A stretch of 64,000 nucleotides of DNA from Tricholoma matsutake (lineage: Eukaryota; Basidiomycota; Agaricomycetes; Agaricales; Tricholomataceae), in assembly GCA_026075535.2 (NCBI GenBank), contig AP026543.1:1426001-1490000 (forward strand). The letters are read 5' to 3'. Shown in pieces: positions 28,900 to 51,800 of this stretch. Positions within the stretch are counted from its first letter, which is position 1, and each line of letters starts with the position of its first letter. The translations under genes were made by a program, and so were the position numbers. The notes beneath the pieces are model-generated. The model ran no database searches. It had not been told where the DNA came from and saw only the letters and a list, made by a program, of their open reading frames with translations.

Positions 28900-29240
28900 G
28901 TCCTACAAATGGAAATCTGGTCACTTATTGACAAGCCCAGTGGGAATCCCCACTTCTCTTGTGGGATCCCCACCTTTTCCTTGGTATGCCCATGTGTATG
29001 TGGGTAGTCCTCATGGGAATCCCAGTCCCTTTGTGGACAAGTCCAATGGGGATCCCCACCTCCTTCATGGGACACCCAGTTCCTTTGTAGACAAGTCCAA
29101 GGGGGATCCCCACCACCTTCATGGGACACCCAGCTCCTTGTGGACAAGTCCAAAAGGGGTTCCCACCCCATACTGGGACACCCATGTATCTGTGGGTAGT
29201 CCTCATGGGAATCCCAATTTGTTTGTGCACATAGGTAAGC
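28900..29240 (+). repeat. 50-55-bp tandem repeat, left flank of satellite region
   Basis: Units carry GACAAGTCCAATGGGGATCC, CCACCTCCTTCATGGGACAC and CCAGTTCCTTTGT. About five imperfect copies are present. The same unit recurs in the same orientation at 33395-33530, on the far side of the inverted satellite. Confidence 0.75.
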
Positions 29241-29329
29241 TACATTGTATTGAAGGATATGGGTTCGATGGATGCTGTCAAACTCACTATATAAAGTCAC
29301 TATACTATATTAACCAATGACTACATTGT

Positions 29330-31560
29330 ACACTGATTACTATACCTTACAATAGACATGCATTAGGAATGTAATACAGACATTAGTAATGTTTGAAATG
29401 CAATGGGCACAGACACGGGCATGGGTGCGGCCATGGACATGGGGACGGCCTTGTATATCTGTTTTGATGTATGCTGTTGAACTATAGACATGTAATACAG
29501 ACATTAGTAACATTTGAAATACAACAGGCACAGACATGGCCACAGATACGGACACAGCCACTGACACAGTCACTGACATGGGGATGGCCTTGTATATCTG
29601 TTTTGATGTATGCCATCAAACTATAGACATGCATTATGAATGCAATACAGACATTAGTAACATTTGAAATGCAATGGGCACAGACATGGCCACGGATACA
29701 GACACAGCCATGGACACAGCCACTGACACGGCCATGGGAGCAGCCATGGACATGGGGACGGCCTTGTATATCTGTTTTGATGTATGCCATTGAGCTATAG
29801 ACATGCATTAGGAATGTAATACAGACATTAGTAACATTTGAAATGCAACAGGCACAGACATGGCCACAGATATGGACACAGCCATGGACACAGCCACTGA
29901 CATGGACATGGGAGCAGCCACAGACACAGGAGTGGCCATGGACACGGGGATGACCTTGTATATCTGTTTTGATGTATGCCATTGAGCTATAGACATGCAT
30001 TAGGAATGTAATACATACATTAGTAACATTTGAAATGCAATGGGCACAGACATGGCCATGGATATGGACACCACCACTGACACAGCCACTGACATGGCCA
30101 CAGGAATGGCCATGGACATGGGGATGGACACAGGGTTGGCCTTGTATAGCTGTTACAATGTATGCCATTGAACTAAGGCCGCTCCCATGTCTCTGGCCAA
30201 TCCCATTTCTCTGGCCAATCCCATGTCTCTGGCCACTCCTGTTTCTCTGTCCACTCCCATTTCTCTGATTATTATACCTTAGGATTGACAGGCATTAGGA
30301 GTGTATGCACACAGACATGGCCATGGATATGGACACCACCACTGACACAGCCACTGACACAGCCACGGGAATGGCCATGGACATGGGGATGGACACAGGG
30401 TTGGCCTTGTATAGCTGTTACAATGTATGCCGTTGAACTAAGGCCACTCCTGTGTCTCTGGCTGCTCCTGTGTGCATGCCACTCCTGTTTCTCTGTCTGC
30501 TCCCATTTCTCTGATTATTATACCTTACAATTGACATGCATTAGGAGTGTAACACAGACATTAGTAACATTTGAAATGCAATGCACACAGACATGGCCAT
30601 GGACACAGACATGGGGATGGACACAGGGACAGCCTTGTATATCTGTTTCGATGTATGCCATCAAACTAAGGCCACTCCCATGTCTCTGGCCACTCCCATT
30701 TCTCCATCTGCTCCTGTTTCTCTGATTATTATACCTTACAATCGACATGCATTAGGAGTGTAATACAGACATTAGTAACATTTGAAATGCAATGCACACA
30801 GACATGGCCATGGCCATGGACATGGGGATGGCCTTGTATATCTGTTTCAATGTATGCCATTGAACTAAGGCCACTGCCATATCCTGGCCACTCCCATTTC
30901 TTTTGTCCACTCCTGTTTCTCTGATTATTATACCTTACAATAGACATGCATTAGAAGTGTAATACAGACATTAGTAACATTTGACATGCAATGGGCATAG
31001 ACACAGCCATGGCCATGGACACAGACATGGCCACGGGGATGGCCAGGGCATTTCCATCAGGCACAGACATGGGAATGGGCAATATTAACCTATGCATACT
31101 ATTCTCTGTACACATTGTATATCTGTTTCAATGTATGCTGTCAAACTAAGGCCACTCCTGTTTCTCTGTCTGCTCCTGTTTCTCTGATTATTATACCTTA
31201 CAATGGACATGCATTAGGAATGTAATTCAGACATTAGTAAAGTTTGAAATGCAATCGGCACAGACACAGCCATGGCCACAGGGATGGCCAGGGCATTGCC
31301 ATCAGGCATGAACATGGGAATGGGCAATATTAACCTATGCATACTATTGACTATACATATTGTATATCTGTTTCAATGGTTGCCATCCGCCCCTATATAT
31401 CTGTACATACTCTATTAATTAACCAATGACTACTACTTTACTTGCTGTACAATACAGATAGATGTGCATTAAGCACATTGTACAGACATTAGTAATGTTT
31501 TTAATGCAATTGCAGGGGAAGGGGATGGGTACAGGTATGGGAATGGGAATGGGGAAGTGG
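29330..31560 (+). repeat. satellite arm, forward orientation
   Basis: About ten units of 120-300 bp share TAATACAGACATTAGTAACA, TTTGAAATGCAATGGGCACA and TGTATATCTGTTTTGATGTA. They are separated by hexamer-like runs (GACACRGCCATG) and, from 30177, by an 18-bp repeat (TCTCTGGCCACTCCCATT). Long open frames arise only because the period is a multiple of 3. I do not call them genes. Confidence 0.85.
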
Positions 31561-31691
31561 GACTGACATTGGGGCTTGACAGGACCACAAAAACAATGAT
31601 ATTCCTACAATGATGTACATTAAGAACAGAATACAGACAAAAGCTACATAGATGTATATATAATGAGTAAGGTATTAATTATCCTTCCACA

Positions 31692-31919
31692 TCACTGGGA
31701 ATCAGCAGGGGGATTGTCCATAGCATCTGAGTGGGATGATGGCATAATCTTTGAGAACCTCCTTTTGAATGATTTCAACTTATTTTCAACCCTTTCCTTC
31801 AAAGTGGCATATGGTCTCAATGTTATATCTTGTTGTTTGAGCTTCTCCACCTCCGCCATGTACAGACAATGACTGGCATCCTTGTATGATGTGCCAAGCT
31901 GGTCTTGAAGGGCCTTCAC
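31692..31919 (-). CDS. short unassigned exon-like ORF between satellite arms
   Basis: About 75 codons: KALQDQLGTSYKDASHCLYM, EVEKLKQQDITLRPYATLKE, NKLKSFKRRFSK. The composition is charged and probably helical or coiled-coil, unlike the flanking repeats. It is on the same strand as the ORF at 33589-33903 and the KDZ gene, so it may be a distal exon of a KDZ-associated gene. No domain is recognised. Confidence 0.3.
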   Translation of the reverse strand: MKALQDQLGTSYKDASHCLYMAEVEKLKQQDITLRPYATLKERVENKLKSFKRRFSKIMPSSHSDAMDNPPADSQ

Positions 31920-32084
31920 TTCAGCATGGCTCCCTGTCTGTCAAGTCCTGCAACAGGAAGAACTAATGTAGAAATGCAAATGAGGATGACACTTACTGGA
32001 TCGGCAGGTAGGGTGAGCTGGTTATGGACCACCAGGTAGGATGGCTGAGCTGTCATGTTGCCAGACTGCAAATTGATCATAATG

Positions 32085-33240
32085 TCAGTTGGGATAGACA
32101 AGACATGGGAGCAGACAGAGAAATGGGAGCAGACAGAGAAATGGGAGCAGACAGAGAAATGGGAGTGGAGAGAGAAATGGGAGTGGCCAGGACATGGCAG
32201 CAGCCTTAGTTTGATGGCATTCATCAAAACAGATATACAATGTGTACAGTGAATAGTATGCATAGGTTAATATTGCCCATTCCCATGTCTGTGCCCGAAG
32301 GCGATGCCCTGGCCAGCCCCATGGTCATGGCTGTGTCTGTGCCCATTGCATTTCAAATGTTACTAATGTCTGTATTACACTCCTAATGCAGGTCTATTGT
32401 AAGGTATAATAATCAGAGAAACAGGAGCAGACAGAGAAATGGGAGCGGCCACAAAAAGGGAGCATCCAGAGACACGGGAGTGGCCTTAGTTTGATGGCAT
32501 ACATCAAAACAGATATACAAGGCTGTCCCCATGTCCATCCCCATGTCCATGTCAGTGGCCATGGCCATGTCTGTGCACATTGCATTTCAAATGTTACTAA
32601 TGTCTGTATTACACTCCTAATGCATGTCGATTGTAATGTATAATAATCAGAGAAACAGGAGCAGACAGAGAAACAGGAGTGGCCAGAGACATGGGATTGG
32701 CCAGAGACATGGGAGCAGCCTTAGTTCAACGGCATACATTGAAACAGCTATACAAGGCTGACCCCCATGTCCATGGCCATTTCCATGGCCGTGTCCATGG
32801 CTGTTCCTGTGGCCATGTCAGTGGCTGTGTCAGTGGCTGTGTCCATATCCATGGCCAGGTCTGTGCCTGTTGCATTTCAAGTGTTACTAATGTCTGTATT
32901 ACATTCCTAATGCATGTCTATAGCTCAATGGCATACATCAAAACAGATATACAAGGCCATCCCCATGTCTGTGGCCACTCCCGTGCCAGTGGCTGTGTCC
33001 GTATCCATGGCCAGGTCTGTGCCCATTGCATTTCAAATGTTACTAATGTCTGTATTACATTCCTAATGCATGTCTATAGTTCAATGACATACATCAAAAC
33101 AGATATACAAGGCCATCCCCATGTCTGTGGCTGCTCCCGTGCCCATTGCATTTCAAAAATTACTAATGTCTGTATTCCATTCCTAATGCATGTCTATTGT
33201 AAGGTATAGTAATCAGTGTACAATGTAGTCGTTGGTTAAT
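32085..33240 (-). repeat. satellite arm, reverse orientation
   Basis: Five units read as the reverse complement of the 29.3-31.6 kb arm (TTACTAATGTCTGTATTA, ACATCAAAACAGATATACAA). The outermost 180 bp mirrors 29270-29420, ending at the ACTATATAAAGTCACTATAC word, so the two arms form a 4-kb inverted repeat around 31.6-31.95 kb. GAAATGGGAGCAGACAGA is tandemly repeated at 32105-32175. Confidence 0.85.
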
Positions 33241-33394
33241 ATAGTATAGTGACTTTATATAGTGAGTTCGACAGTGTCCATCGAACCCGTATCACCAGAA
33301 ATTTGTCTTTTAATTTATCATTCAATACAATGTATGCATTCAATAGGTCATATCATTCGATACAATGTAGCTTACCTATGTGCTTTGTGGACAT

Positions 33395-33530
33395 GTCCAA
33401 TGGGAATCCCCACCTCCTCCATGGGACACCCAGTTCCTTGTGGACAAGTCCAACAGGGATCCCCACCTTACACTGGGACACTCAACAAGTCCAATGGGAT
33501 CCCCATCCCCTCCATGGGACACCCTGCCAA
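33395..33530 (+). repeat. 50-bp tandem repeat, right flank of satellite region
   Basis: Two to three units (GTCCAATGGGAATCCCCACC, TCCATGGGACACCC) match the left flank in direct orientation, although the intervening arms are inverted. Confidence 0.7.
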
Positions 33531-33588: not shown

Positions 33589-33903
33589 CTAGCATATAGA
33601 CAGTTGAAACACTTCACAATATGCATCTGCATGATCAATAGCATCTAAGGTTTCAAACAATTCTGTTTCCCACTCATTGTCCCCTACTGGCAAGTCATCC
33701 TCCACAATGCAATCATCATCCTCAATACCACCTTCAACAGCTGTTATGAATTTTGTTATCGTAACCCAGGATGACCAGACATATGCTGGCAAGGCCGGGT
33801 ACTTTATTTTTCCTTCACATTTGACTTGACTCATTCTGATGGGAGATGCTTTGATGCCTGACTCCCACCATTTGACATGCTGTGCCACAGCATTCCTTGA
33901 CAT
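33589..33903 (-). CDS. unassigned acidic exon-like ORF, possibly KDZ-associated
   Basis: About 100 codons: QHVKWWESGIKASP, KYPALPAYVWSSWVTITKFI, an acidic stretch (EDDDCIVEDDLP) and WETELFETLDAIDHADAY. The hydrophobic W-containing helix followed by acid resembles segments I associate with genes near basidiomycete KDZ transposases, but I cannot name a domain. It stops exactly where the second gypsy begins (33904), so its upstream part may be the KDZ sequence resuming at about 40077. Confidence 0.35.
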   Translation of the reverse strand: MSRNAVAQHVKWWESGIKASPIRMSQVKCEGKIKYPALPAYVWSSWVTITKFITAVEGGIEDDDCIVEDDLPVGDNEWETELFETLDAIDHADAYCEVFQLSIC

Positions 33904-34416
33904 CGGACCCTTGACATCGGATCCTTGACATCGGATGCCTCATGCTTGGCATGAGGCTTATTGTTCTATTGTTCTTTCTATTATTACTTGACAAGGATCT
34001 CATATTCTGATTGGACAATAGACATCTCTGAACTGTATATAAGCTACAGTAATACTGCCTGTATTCCTTAGCTTGACCTAATTCAACCAATGGTCTTAAG
34101 CTCAACCAGAACACTCGACAACTTAGAAAACCTCTAAGTTGTGATAACTCAAACTTGACAGTTGGAAAGCCTCCAACTGTGATATATGAACAGACAGTCT
34201 ACTCAGAAAGCCTCTGAGTACAGATAGCCATATCGACTTAGGAAGCACCAAGTCCCAAACAGAACCCAATACAGTAAGAAAGCCTCTTACTGCAATAACT
34301 GATACAGTTGGAAAGCCTCCAGCTGTGACATACAAAGACTAGGCTGAGTTGAGATTTATAGTCTTAACAACAGGTCAAGCTGATCTACAAAGTCCACCTA
34401 CCTAGGTGCAGACACA
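33904..34416 (+). repeat. 5' LTR/leader of gypsy element 2 with a six-hairpin array
   Basis: The segment opens with tandem TTGACATCGGAYCC words, has a TATA-like CTGTATATAAGC at 34037 and leads to the gag ATG at 34417. With only one copy present, the LTR/leader boundary cannot be fixed. A TG..CA pair from about 33905 to 34390 is possible. No clear tRNA primer site was found. Confidence 0.55.
34119..34326 (+). repeat. array of six hairpins with AAAGCCT-type loop
   Basis: Hairpins at 34119-34141, 34158-34180, 34200-34220, 34235-34254, 34272-34292 and 34304-34326. Five share a 7-nt loop (AAAACCT or AAAGCCT); the fourth is shortened (AAGCA). The stems differ: CAACTTAG, ACAGTTGG, TACTCAG, GACTTAGG, CAGTAAG and ACAGTTGG, each matched by its own complement. 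The sixth keeps pairing through a G-U (CCAGCTGT). Spacing is 32-42 nt. This is covariation among tandem copies, pointing to selection on or templated maintenance of RNA or single-strand structure. Confidence 0.85.
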
Positions 34417-35498
34417 ATGTCTTTCAGACAAAGCCCAGACAGACCTCTGACAGGAGCATCATCATCAGGAAGAACCCCATGGTATAGGTACCAGGGTCAA
34501 TTAGTACAATACTCAGAACCAGCACAGAAGGGTTCTCAAAGAGAACAAGAGATGAAGAACCACAGTATCTTGACGAAGAAGATTTCAAATCTTTGAACAA
34601 AGAAGAAACCCCAGAACAAAACCCATTCTCCTTATCCAATGACAACATGTCTACTGAACCCACCACATAACCCAAGGAAATCAGAATCCAAACCCCATCC
34701 AACTTCACAGGGGACCGAACTAGAACTGCGAAGTTCTTACAAGAAGTGAAACTCTATTTGAGAGTGAACCATGGAATCTATGACACCAATGAGAAGAAGA
34801 TCATCTTCGCATTGTCCTTCATGAATGGAGGAACTGCCACACCCTGGGCACAGACATGGGCAGAGAAGGAAGACCGAGGAACCTGGTCAACCTTTGAATT
34901 GGTGCTCAAGACAGTGTTCATGCCGATTGACAAAGCTGGCAGAGCCAGGACAGAGATGAAGACATTGAAGCAGGGACAGGACCTGGAGGACTACATCGCA
35001 CAGTTCCAAATCCTGTGAGAGAAGGTGGGAATCAATGACGACACCACCCTTATCAAACTCTTTATGGATGGGTTGAACCCCAAGCTCCTCAAAAGAGTTT
35101 TCAACATGGAAACAATCCCTACAACCTTGGAAGGAATGATCAATGCTGCCTCCAAGTATGATGGACAGTGGAGGAGAGCAAAAGCCATAGCAGGAAAAGC
35201 ACAGGAAGCTTTGGCAAAAAGGCTGCCAAGCTCTAAAACAAAAGAGAGCCCACTCAAGATCAACCAACTCTCCTACCAAGAGAGGATTGAACATATGAAG
35301 AAGGGACTATGCTTTGTGTGCCACCAGCCAGAACACAGAGCAACTGAACACAAGAAAGGGGAAACAAGGACCAAGAACCGGTCATTCCCAAAGAAGAAAA
35401 GCAAGGAAGCCTACTCAAAGATCTGGGTGATCATGAAAGAACTTGATGAAGAAGACAAAGGGATGGCCCTCACTATGATAGAGGATGCGGGTTTTTAA
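34417..35498 (+). pseudogene. gypsy element 2 gag
   Basis: From ATG 34417 (MSFRQSPDRPLTG) one frameshift leads to DEEPQYLDEEDFK, and a stop precedes EIRIQTPSNFTGD. The gag capsid domain follows: TAKFLQEVKLYLRVN, NGGTATPWAQTWAE, FELVLKTVF, ARTEMKTLKQGQDLEDYIAQF, a stop, then LFMDGLNPKLLKRVF. The knuckle reads CFVCHQPEHRATEH, C-x2-C-x4-H-x4-H rather than the usual final Cys. A basic tail (KKGETRTKNRSFPKKKSK) may bind RNA. Family usual length is about 350 codons, as here. Stops show decay. Confidence 0.85.
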
Positions 35499-48839: not shown

Positions 48840-51800
48840 CTCTAGACCAACCCGTCTCAAGTTCAACTTATCACCATCCTACTGCACACTATGCCAGTTA
48901 CTCATGCTGCTGCTGCATGCAATACACCCATCAATGTTGGGGATACCCATCCTAAGCCTGTTCTGAAATGACAATGGAAGACTGCAAGAGTGAAAGCCAA
49001 AACAACAGCCACATTGCCTACTGGTTCTGGGGATGTGGCTGCTGCAAGTGCACCTCTTTCTCCCCACTCTAATAATTCCACCTGTGCTGCGCATGCTCAG
49101 AATCTTGCTCCTCCTCCTTCACATCTTCCTCGCAAGGTTTCCACCACTTATAGTGCCCATATTTTGAACCCCAGCAACATTAATTGCCCAGCGCTGTGAT
49201 TACTTGGGCATGGCAAAAGCAACCCCGATCCTGATCCCAATGCCGCATTCATTTCCACCTGCATAAGGTGGGGTCATGATGATCATGAGGCTCCCCAAAC
49301 TCCAGTCCCTGAATTGCCCTTGAATATGGATGTGTCTCCATGCCATCATGTGGCTTGTTCCCCTCCCTGGATGGAGGATGTGCAGAATAATGATAATGAG
49401 TCACAACGCAGTGAAACTCCACTGTATTTTCCTTCATCTCCCCCTGATGCCAACAATTGTGAGACCCTGCGACCAGCCCCTTCATCTCCAGCCAACTCCA
49501 GCAAATACTCATCTCCAGCCAACTCCAGTGACTCATCTCCAGCCAACTCCAGCGAACACACCCCCAAATTGCCACTCAGCTCCCTCTCTGGGTCTGATTA
49601 TTCTGAGAGGAGAAGGGATGATGACCAGATGCATCTGCAGAAAATTTGCCTTAGAGGACCTTGGGCTGTGACTCCAACACAAGAAGAACAAGATGAGGAA
49701 GATGATTGCATACTTGATCAGGAAGCACCAGTCTCACCACCACAGTTCACAGCTGCACAGAAGGGGAAAGGAAAGAGGGAAAGAAAGGCATCCACTAGTC
49801 GTCGTCCATTGAGCTATGATGGGGATGATGCAGGCAATGTCTTGGACCACAACACTAGTGAATGACAACTGTTCAGATCAGGCCCCATTCAAGCAGCCGC
49901 TAAAGCTCAAGTGATTGAGGCCCAGCAAATTTACCATGAGACAGTGGCGGCAATGTCAATCTGTTGTTCAACATTGTTGGTGAAAACACAGTGAAGCCTC
50001 GTTGCATCAACATATGGAATGCCTTCCAGTCATGGTATCCTGAGCATGGTGAAATCAAACGTGAAGATGATAGTATACATGATTTTTTTTTGTTTTTGCT
50101 CAGACTTCTAACCTTACTGTAGTGTCTAGCACAGATTACACTGGCATCATTTGCAAAGAGTACAACAAGAAGCTTGTTGAGCTTGGCAATGAGGCCGATG
50201 ACCCAGCAGCTAGATGGCTCCATTTCAAGGTACAGCTCAACTGGTATGAATCAAAAATGCAAGATTTCATCTACTTGAAGAAGAATGATGGTAACTTTGA
50301 TGCTGTGGTAGCCAATATCATAGACAAGTTTGATCATTTGGTGAGTTCTCATTCATTGTGTTAAACATGTCTTGAACAGTCTGTGACAGGGTCTGATTGC
50401 ATGGGAGCAGTACGGTGTTCATTGCTTTGGGTTTATCATTGACCCTAGCTGTGATTCAAGAGGTTGTATATCCAGCGTGATGTGGGGTAGTGGGCCACTG
50501 TACAAGGAGCTGCGGAATACATACAATTCAACAGTCATGAAACAGCTAAGTGATTATGAAGGGATGTTCAAGTAAGCTATGCTAGCTTCCATTTCATCCT
50601 TTCTTTCATGCTCAATCTACTACAGGGGCTTAGAAGCCCTGAAGGCTGGAAGAGAATATGCACAGGAGCAATATTCAGCTGACCTTCACAAGATACATGG
50701 CGAGGGAGAACATGATCATACATGTCACTTATTTGGGGAATTTCTGCATGTCGATATCTGTACGTCTTTCTTTCCCAGATGTTCGATGTGATATTAATCC
50801 TGTCATCTCTAGTACATATCATTCATGAGCAAGTTCACCCTGGTGATGCAAAGAAGATGCAGGTGGCTTGGGCATGCTGGCCTGAATTTGCCTTCCGTTA
50901 CCAAATTTGATTGGTTGGTTGGCCAGCTGAGATCGGAAATGTTCCTGGGCCTGGCTTTAACCTCAAAGTTGACCTGAAATCCAAAGTCCTGACAAAGTTG
51001 ATTTCTGCACACATTCAGGCATTGTCTCATGATGAAGGTGAGGATGGGGTTGTGGATGAGGGCCCGCTGTGTCATATTGAACCTTGGACAGATGGTATGT
51101 GGTTTATTGATTAGTTTTATGTTGTATCATGACACTTGTTGCACAGAGGAGAAAGAACTACCCGATGAAAAGCTGATGTCAGTCCCCCTCATGCTTGACA
51201 ATTGTGAACCAGCAAATACACTAATGACACTCATGGAATCCAAGAAATTCATGCAAAGGGTTGGGCAGAGCAAGAGCAGGCAGTCCGGCCAAATACCAAC
51301 CCATCTGTCAGCTTCAGAGTCATCAGATCTTGATGCAAATCCACACTCACACCCACACTGTCCTCATCTGGCACAGGCTCCACGAGGGGCTACTACAGAC
51401 ATTCTGTATATTAACAAGAACTAACACTGACATCATGTACCCCCCCACATTACACTTGGTTCATGCACTGCTGCAGAGGCTTCAGATCCAGAGGAAACTC
51501 CACGTGCATGTGCACACCCTCATCAAGCAGTCTCAGGTGCCACATGCTACCGAGAGTTTGGATGAAGATGCACATCCAACAGTTGTCAATGACAGTGTAT
51601 GTGTTTCCAATGCAACCACTCATCATCATGAATCCCTGCAATCCCTTTGCTGCCACCCGGAAACTGCGCAATATGATGAGCAAAGGTCATGCAATGTTCC
51701 TCTTGCCACCCATCACCATCAGGGATATCATGAGGAATCTTACCGAAACAAAACATATGCATCACTCCAGGCACCTGTTCAAACCCATCATCAACGCCGT

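Follow-up and report, generated by a model that had tools for sequence, protein, structure and literature searches.

Why should the long terminal repeat (LTR) of a retrotransposon carry six hairpins in a row, all with practically the same loop? The question is raised by a stretch of Tricholoma matsutake chromosome 6 (C6:1426001-1490000; this 64 kb stretch is the window, to which plain coordinates refer), in which an earlier note had described such an array in the leader or LTR of a gypsy element upstream of gag. We compared the region with its copies in the genome (13 contigs, 161,040,721 bases). The structure of the array and of the surrounding leader is well supported, as sequence and folding establish the inverted repeats, their place, the complementarity, the conservation and some of the paired changes.

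The array and its host element

The host of the array is an abundant chromodomain Ty3/gypsy element. The earlier placement was right as to the gypsy LTR or leader upstream of gag, and it can be made more precise: the hairpins lie inside the LTR, in its R-U5 part, and hence in both LTRs, as was seen in five neighbouring LTR pairs (spacing 6.5-7.9 kb), both members of which carry the region. The LTR end TAGTCTTAACA is common to the copies in the alignment. The LTR, its TATA box and the hairpins of the window copy are the following:

33742..34369, + strand: 5' LTR, 628 bp, TGTTA...TAACA, U3 then R-U5 (from sequence and the five neighbouring LTR pairs)
34036..34042, + strand: TATA box, TATATAA (from sequence)
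34118..34142, + strand: HP1, 10 bp, loop AAACC; two compensatory pairs between subfamilies
34158..34180, + strand: HP2, 9 bp, loop AAGCC; every pair intact in 117 or 118 of 118 copies
34200..34220, + strand: HP3, 8 bp, loop AAGCC (from sequence and copy alignment)
34235..34254, + strand: HP4, weak, 5 bp plus a bulged A plus 2 bp, loop AAGCA
34272..34292, + strand: HP5, 8 bp, loop AAGCC; two compensatory pairs between subfamilies A and B
34303..34327, + strand: HP6, 10 bp with one G-U, loop AAGCC (from sequence and copy alignment)

Six tandem hairpins are thus present on the + strand at 34118-34327, and their centres, 33-41 nt apart, agree with the spacing of 32-42 nt given before; HP6 contains one G-U wobble. 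The loop is indeed constant, but it comprises 5 nt (AAGCC, apart from AAACC in HP1 and AAGCA in HP4), and the longer form AAAGCCT that had been proposed includes the closing A-U pair. The hairpin energies are about -8 to -12 kcal/mol, with HP4 at -5. In the window, all four occurrences of GAAAGCCTC on either strand fall within stems of 8-10 bp, and when both strands were scanned for AAG[CT][CA], AAACC or AAATC loops on stems of 6 bp or more, the matches were the five strong hairpins only, all on the + strand. Hairpin density as such is not unique, as the 210-nt array stretch has 5 perfect stems of at least 7 bp, several other stretches also have 5 and one has 6; the unusual feature is the shared loop, rather than the density. 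An excess over chance is nevertheless clear in R-U5, with 4.95 hairpins per copy versus 0.53 in dinucleotide shuffles, and U3 contains 2.88 short inverted repeats per copy versus 1.25 in such shuffles (40 copies, namely the first 40 among 93 whose LTR start could be recognised). No Rfam family matched window 33700-34700 at E up to 1.

Kissing interactions between the loops were put aside, because AAGCC loops are not self-complementary; the motif GAGGCTT in U3 (33953-33959) could pair with the loop and the 3' stem, yet it occupies a hairpin of its own. A small-RNA (Dicer) role was set aside as well, stems of 8-10 bp being short. HP4 with its bulged A resembles, in the form found in subfamily B, the layout of the MS2 coat-protein operator, which we presume to be coincidence.

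Surrounding the array are other repeats. Large minisatellite fields with periods from 12 to 246 lie directly upstream of the element (29011-33522), and U3 contains at 33894-33957 the 14-bp tandem repeat TCCTTGACATCGGA, which seems to differ in length among copies and is adjoined by the palindrome GCCTCATGC-NNN-GCATGAGGC; repeat and palindrome look like promoter sites.

DNA queries with the hairpin region gave 1083-1090 first-look candidate places per genome search, 40 of which were scored each time. One scored copy, at C6:1349906-1350506 on the same strand and 110 kb before the window copy, is 97% identical, which could perhaps reflect a segmental duplication, and the remaining scored copies have 92% identity or less. 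For the alignment, 128 loci were collected; two (L039, L053) had no match, and removal of 8 duplicates from the 126 matched loci left 118 non-redundant copies. Since L039-L065 are 27 of the 29 clusters among the first listed pattern matches on C1, and the other loci are top matches of several DNA queries, copy frequencies in this sample are not genome frequencies. The array is kept with few losses across the 118 copies, and the loops hold the form AA(G)YC/A. A seventh hairpin, HP0, is found in one subfamily (34 of 118 copies), and in individual copies hairpins are missing, fused or interrupted (L048, L062, L005); an HP5/HP6 fusion and a partial duplication likewise occur singly (L048, L050).

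Conservation and covariation of the stems

The stems covary in part; where both arms vary, joint change is usual. As nulls we used all column pairs of the same alignment, random column placement, and shuffles and slides. Most stem pairs never or rarely vary in the 118 copies. Both columns vary in five pairs of HP1-HP6, and four of these are canonical in at least 99% of cases, the fifth (HP1 135/149) in 88%; the compensatory exchanges are GC/AT at two HP1 pairs, and CG/GC and GC/AT at two HP5 pairs. The covariation claimed for the stems in the earlier note holds in part, and independent mutation of the two arms in other copies, which would have spoken against it, is mostly not seen. The exceptions are one-sided breaks at two places: 71 of 116 copies have A-C at the outer end of HP6, and when HP4 is drawn on subfamily B, no more than 79.3% of it is paired, this subfamily having gained a G-C pair beside the bulge and lost the outer pair.

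How far these pairs stand out depends on the comparison. Among the other variable column pairs, 309 of 6069 are at least 95% canonical, and 199 non-stem column pairs at this level show a double change too, many of them being G/A-C/T columns. In the ranking by APC score, the four well-kept stem pairs come no higher than 92-173 of 54348, with the fifth at 50971. A subfamily of nine copies differs from its sisters in 8 columns, 4 of which make up two HP1 pairs (frequency under random placement, 0.0003). Subfamilies A and B differ in 17 columns, 4 of which make up two HP5 pairs (0.0076 for random placement over the leader); 16 of the 17 fixed differences lie in alignment columns 256-322 (HP4-HP5), a clustering that suggests exchange of leader segments between lineages, and within this segment the two HP5 matches, at 0.19, are not unusual.

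A second sample consisted of 38 junction copies, picked by the motif of the primer binding site (PBS) described below. Here, 97.1% of 2843 cells are paired, as compared to 25-39% when slid, and 43 cells are changed on both sides versus 13.4 in shuffles, none of 500 reaching this number. Counted as pairs, 5 are changed on both sides; the figure for shuffles is 4.0, and 151 of 500 shuffles get to 5. The 24 pair types are fewer than in shuffles (27.0). Among the seven paralogous hairpins, the loops differ at 16 of 105 positions, and in the inner seven pairs all 56 differing comparisons retain pairing via double change, a figure that is partly circular because the elements were chosen as hairpins, across subfamilies, and with the bulged bases of HP1 and HP4 omitted. 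Covariation is no test of HP0, HP2, HP3, HP6 or the primer duplex, because there is hardly any variation in them. In all, independent compensatory events are few.

A putative self-priming leader

Beyond what had been noted before, the array appears from its sequence context to be nested in a putative self-priming structure with these parts:

34068..34079, + strand: putative self-primer TTAGCTTGACCT, the presumed RNA 5' end, complementary to 34372-34383
34092..34107, + strand: closing helix P2, left strand (RNAalifold, 38 copies)
34342..34356, + strand: closing helix P2, right strand (RNAalifold, 38 copies)
34348..34368, + strand: HP7, an alternative LTR-end hairpin of 8 bp with a 5-nt loop, incompatible with P2
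34372..34383, + strand: putative PBS AGGTCAAGCTGA, two bases past the LTR (from sequence and folds)

In the window copy, TTAGCTTGACCT and AGGTCAAGCTGA are complementary over 12 bp with one G-U. The self-primer lies 34 nt past the TATA box, and the distance from the TATA box to AGCTTGACC is 34 nt in all 114 copies (of 118) that have both motifs exact; from this fixed distance we infer that transcription starts at the self-primer. A tRNA-type PBS (TGG...) was ruled out by reading the LTR junction. The primer:PBS duplex is part of the minimum free energy fold of 38 of 38 junction copies, with at least 9 of 10 core pairs and a mean probability of 0.98. The RNAalifold consensus of these copies contains the closing duplex, P2 and the hairpins, with HP4 down to two pairs and HP0 absent. 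P2 is paired in 98.6% of cells and has one pair that is changed on both sides in 5 copies, and HP7 is paired in 97.0% of cells without compensatory change. As P2 and HP7 are mutually exclusive and about equally well paired, they may constitute a switch.

Self-primed leaders have been described (PMC10085805, PMC4600332), and the closest likeness is to the Tf1/sushi chromoviruses (Tf1, Tf2, Tj1, Tosmo1-3). As far as the accessible portions of these papers go, they too are chromodomain Ty3/gypsy elements, a PBS lying past the 5' LTR can pair with the 5' end of their RNA, and a further helix joins LTR sequence behind the primer with PBS-adjacent sequence, all of which has at least a putative counterpart in the matsutake element (PMC10085805, PMC4600332). 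The Tf1 structure is depicted there as a pretzel, in which two side duplexes accompany a central one (PMC10085805); we found the central duplex and the U5-side helix, but not the other side duplex, candidates for which were not better than shuffles in the three copies tried. What sets the matsutake element apart from the Tf1/sushi leaders, as these are described, is that six or seven paralogous constant-loop hairpins occupy the enclosed loop. In Tf1/sushi elements, the primer is reported to be made by RNase H cleavage after base 11, and self-priming of this kind has been proposed for another basidiomycete element, Tcn1 of Cryptococcus, which we liken to ours by description only (both PMC7175516, in its available part). 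By analogy, reverse transcription of the matsutake element would start from the RNA's own 5' end, made available by a similar cleavage: the first ~12 nt of the transcript would pair with the PBS just past the LTR, P2 would form inside this duplex, and the six or seven hairpins would form a crown within the enclosed loop.

It could be argued that the hairpins are a structural spacer only, bringing the 5' end to the PBS by compaction of about 290 nt, with loops that nothing reads. Their location between primer and PBS would fit, and so would their variable number, with HP0 in only some copies and hairpins lost or fused in others. When the interior was shuffled (40 times in 3 copies), however, the primer:PBS duplex still formed equally well, with mean probabilities of 0.98-0.99, so that the model assigns the hairpins no role in this duplex, and a spacer leaves the constant loop unexplained. 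We consider such a spacer unlikely.

Possible readers of the constant loop

Our best explanation, which we give about an even chance of being right, is that the leader is self-priming and that its hairpins serve as repeated recognition sites, with the Gag protein of the element as the most likely partner. The hairpins are tandem paralogues, in which the stems have diverged with pairing kept and the loop AA(G)YC/A has stayed, a pattern that would be left by a protein with sequence-specific recognition of the loop and no demand on the stem beyond its pairing. Neither spacing nor the control of scanning requires a constant loop. The coding regions to be considered are the following:

34671..35495, + strand: part of gag, broken by a stop codon in the window copy; Ty3_capsid and Retrotrans_gag, with the zinc knuckle CFVCHQPEHRATEH
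L086:2366-3169, - strand; L031:353-946, + strand; L130:756-1349, + strand: ORF3, an extra frame between pol and the 3' LTR

One gag piece matches Ty3_capsid and Retrotrans_gag, and a second has no Pfam family match. The Gag zinc knuckle, CX2CX4HX4H (35310-35351), is also found in L001-L008 and others and has H instead of C as its last ligand. It is intact in 17 of 19 distinct loci with a filter-found site, the others having one C to R change and one stop; of the query and its 72 homologues, 37 have H, 17 have C and 3 have P as the last ligand, and in 16 no such motif was found. Lyophyllum shimeji has homologues of Gag. The pol domains come from a single stop-interrupted copy that was read piecewise (L129, L130): RVT_1, RT_RNaseH and Integrase_H2C2 are above the cut-off and rve just below it, and there is a chromodomain (PF00385, 7e-15; SH3_Tf2-1, 5e-14). 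A search of viral contigs with the reverse transcriptase gave no relative. ORF3 has 268 codons from stop to stop in L086 and ends in two zinc knuckles, CX2CX4HX4C and CX2CX6HX4C. It is present in 7 LTR loci, plus L130, which overlaps L031, and in 4 of the 7 no stop interrupts the stretch across both knuckles. Its L130 piece has no Pfam match, and a protein search that needs shared 5-residue words gave 146 candidates, none at E up to 0.001.

The most likely reader would be the element's own Gag, a candidate binder via its zinc knuckle, so that Gag binding or packaging, among the roles suggested in the earlier note, is still the one we prefer, and several Gag copies on one leader might select the RNA for packaging and help to set up the self-primed state; alternatively, the product of the two-knuckle ORF3 may read the loop.

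A function in translation would be a different matter: hairpins before gag could slow scanning and so split the RNA between translation and packaging. The strength of the hairpins would suit such a function, as would the lack of any ATG between the primer and the end of the LTR in 14 of 117 copies. The number of ATGs drops with rising CpG number (rho -0.52), and upstream ATGs therefore look like later decay. In the 118 LTR copies, CpG columns are the most variable, with 29-33% non-majority letters in spacer and upstream regions versus 7-8% in non-CpG columns of the same regions. But translation control does not need a constant loop, and we regard it as distinctly improbable.

Little likelihood remains for a purely mutational origin, in which template switching during reverse transcription recopies one arm, and inverted repeats stay perfect without selection. 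The U3 excess of short inverted repeats and the HP5/HP6 fusion and partial duplication in single copies are in line with this, but the R-U5 excess is far above that of U3, the changes are single scattered pairs, the stems follow a common paralogue pattern, and the constant loop is poorly explained.

Minus-strand folding energy was tried as a discriminator of RNA and DNA explanations and did not separate the two. Least probable of all is that a host factor binds the palindromes as DNA in the LTR, for although the U3 palindromes resemble protein sites and the minus strand folds nearly as strongly in 3 of 4 copies, stem sequence is not the conserved part, and the AAGYC hairpins are all past the presumed start site.

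Self-primed leaders and leader packaging elements are already known, and recognition of the hairpins by a protein of the element can be compared with the latter. The MMTV purine loop with the PBS (PMC8096270) and the Ty1 TIPIRT domain (PMC5454406) are likewise elements of the 5' leader, with links to Gag, to packaging and to the region of the primer; unlike the matsutake leader, for which Gag binding is a candidate function, they contain no tandem array of one repeated hairpin in what is available of these accounts. Multiple packaging signals of RNA viruses and HBV do consist of several stem-loops with a common loop motif, but, as far as they are described in the sources at hand, these are dispersed through the genome rather than arrayed in a leader, and they do not belong to LTR retrotransposons. 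The same host harbours marY1, also of gypsy type, with 6047 bp and 426-bp LTRs according to the accessible part of its description (PMC10211490), from which our element (628 bp LTR, pair spacing 6.5-7.9 kb) is set apart by sizes only. In the accessible parts of the open-licence literature, we found no LTR leader described as carrying a tandem array of hairpins with a constant loop.

As a more tentative extension, the duplicable tandem array may provide, within the self-priming loop, a multivalent platform on which the zinc-knuckle protein or proteins of the element dock, so that packaging and primer formation would be one RNA machine, with ORF3 as a possibly dedicated reader of no known family. 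For yeast Ty elements, the RNA packaging sequences are said, in the part of the account available, to lack a precise definition (PMC4974528). With its six or seven copies of one hairpin, some of which are set apart by paired changes, the matsutake leader is a natural multivalent test system, and it offers one loop, two candidate proteins and a graded copy number in a putatively self-primed element.
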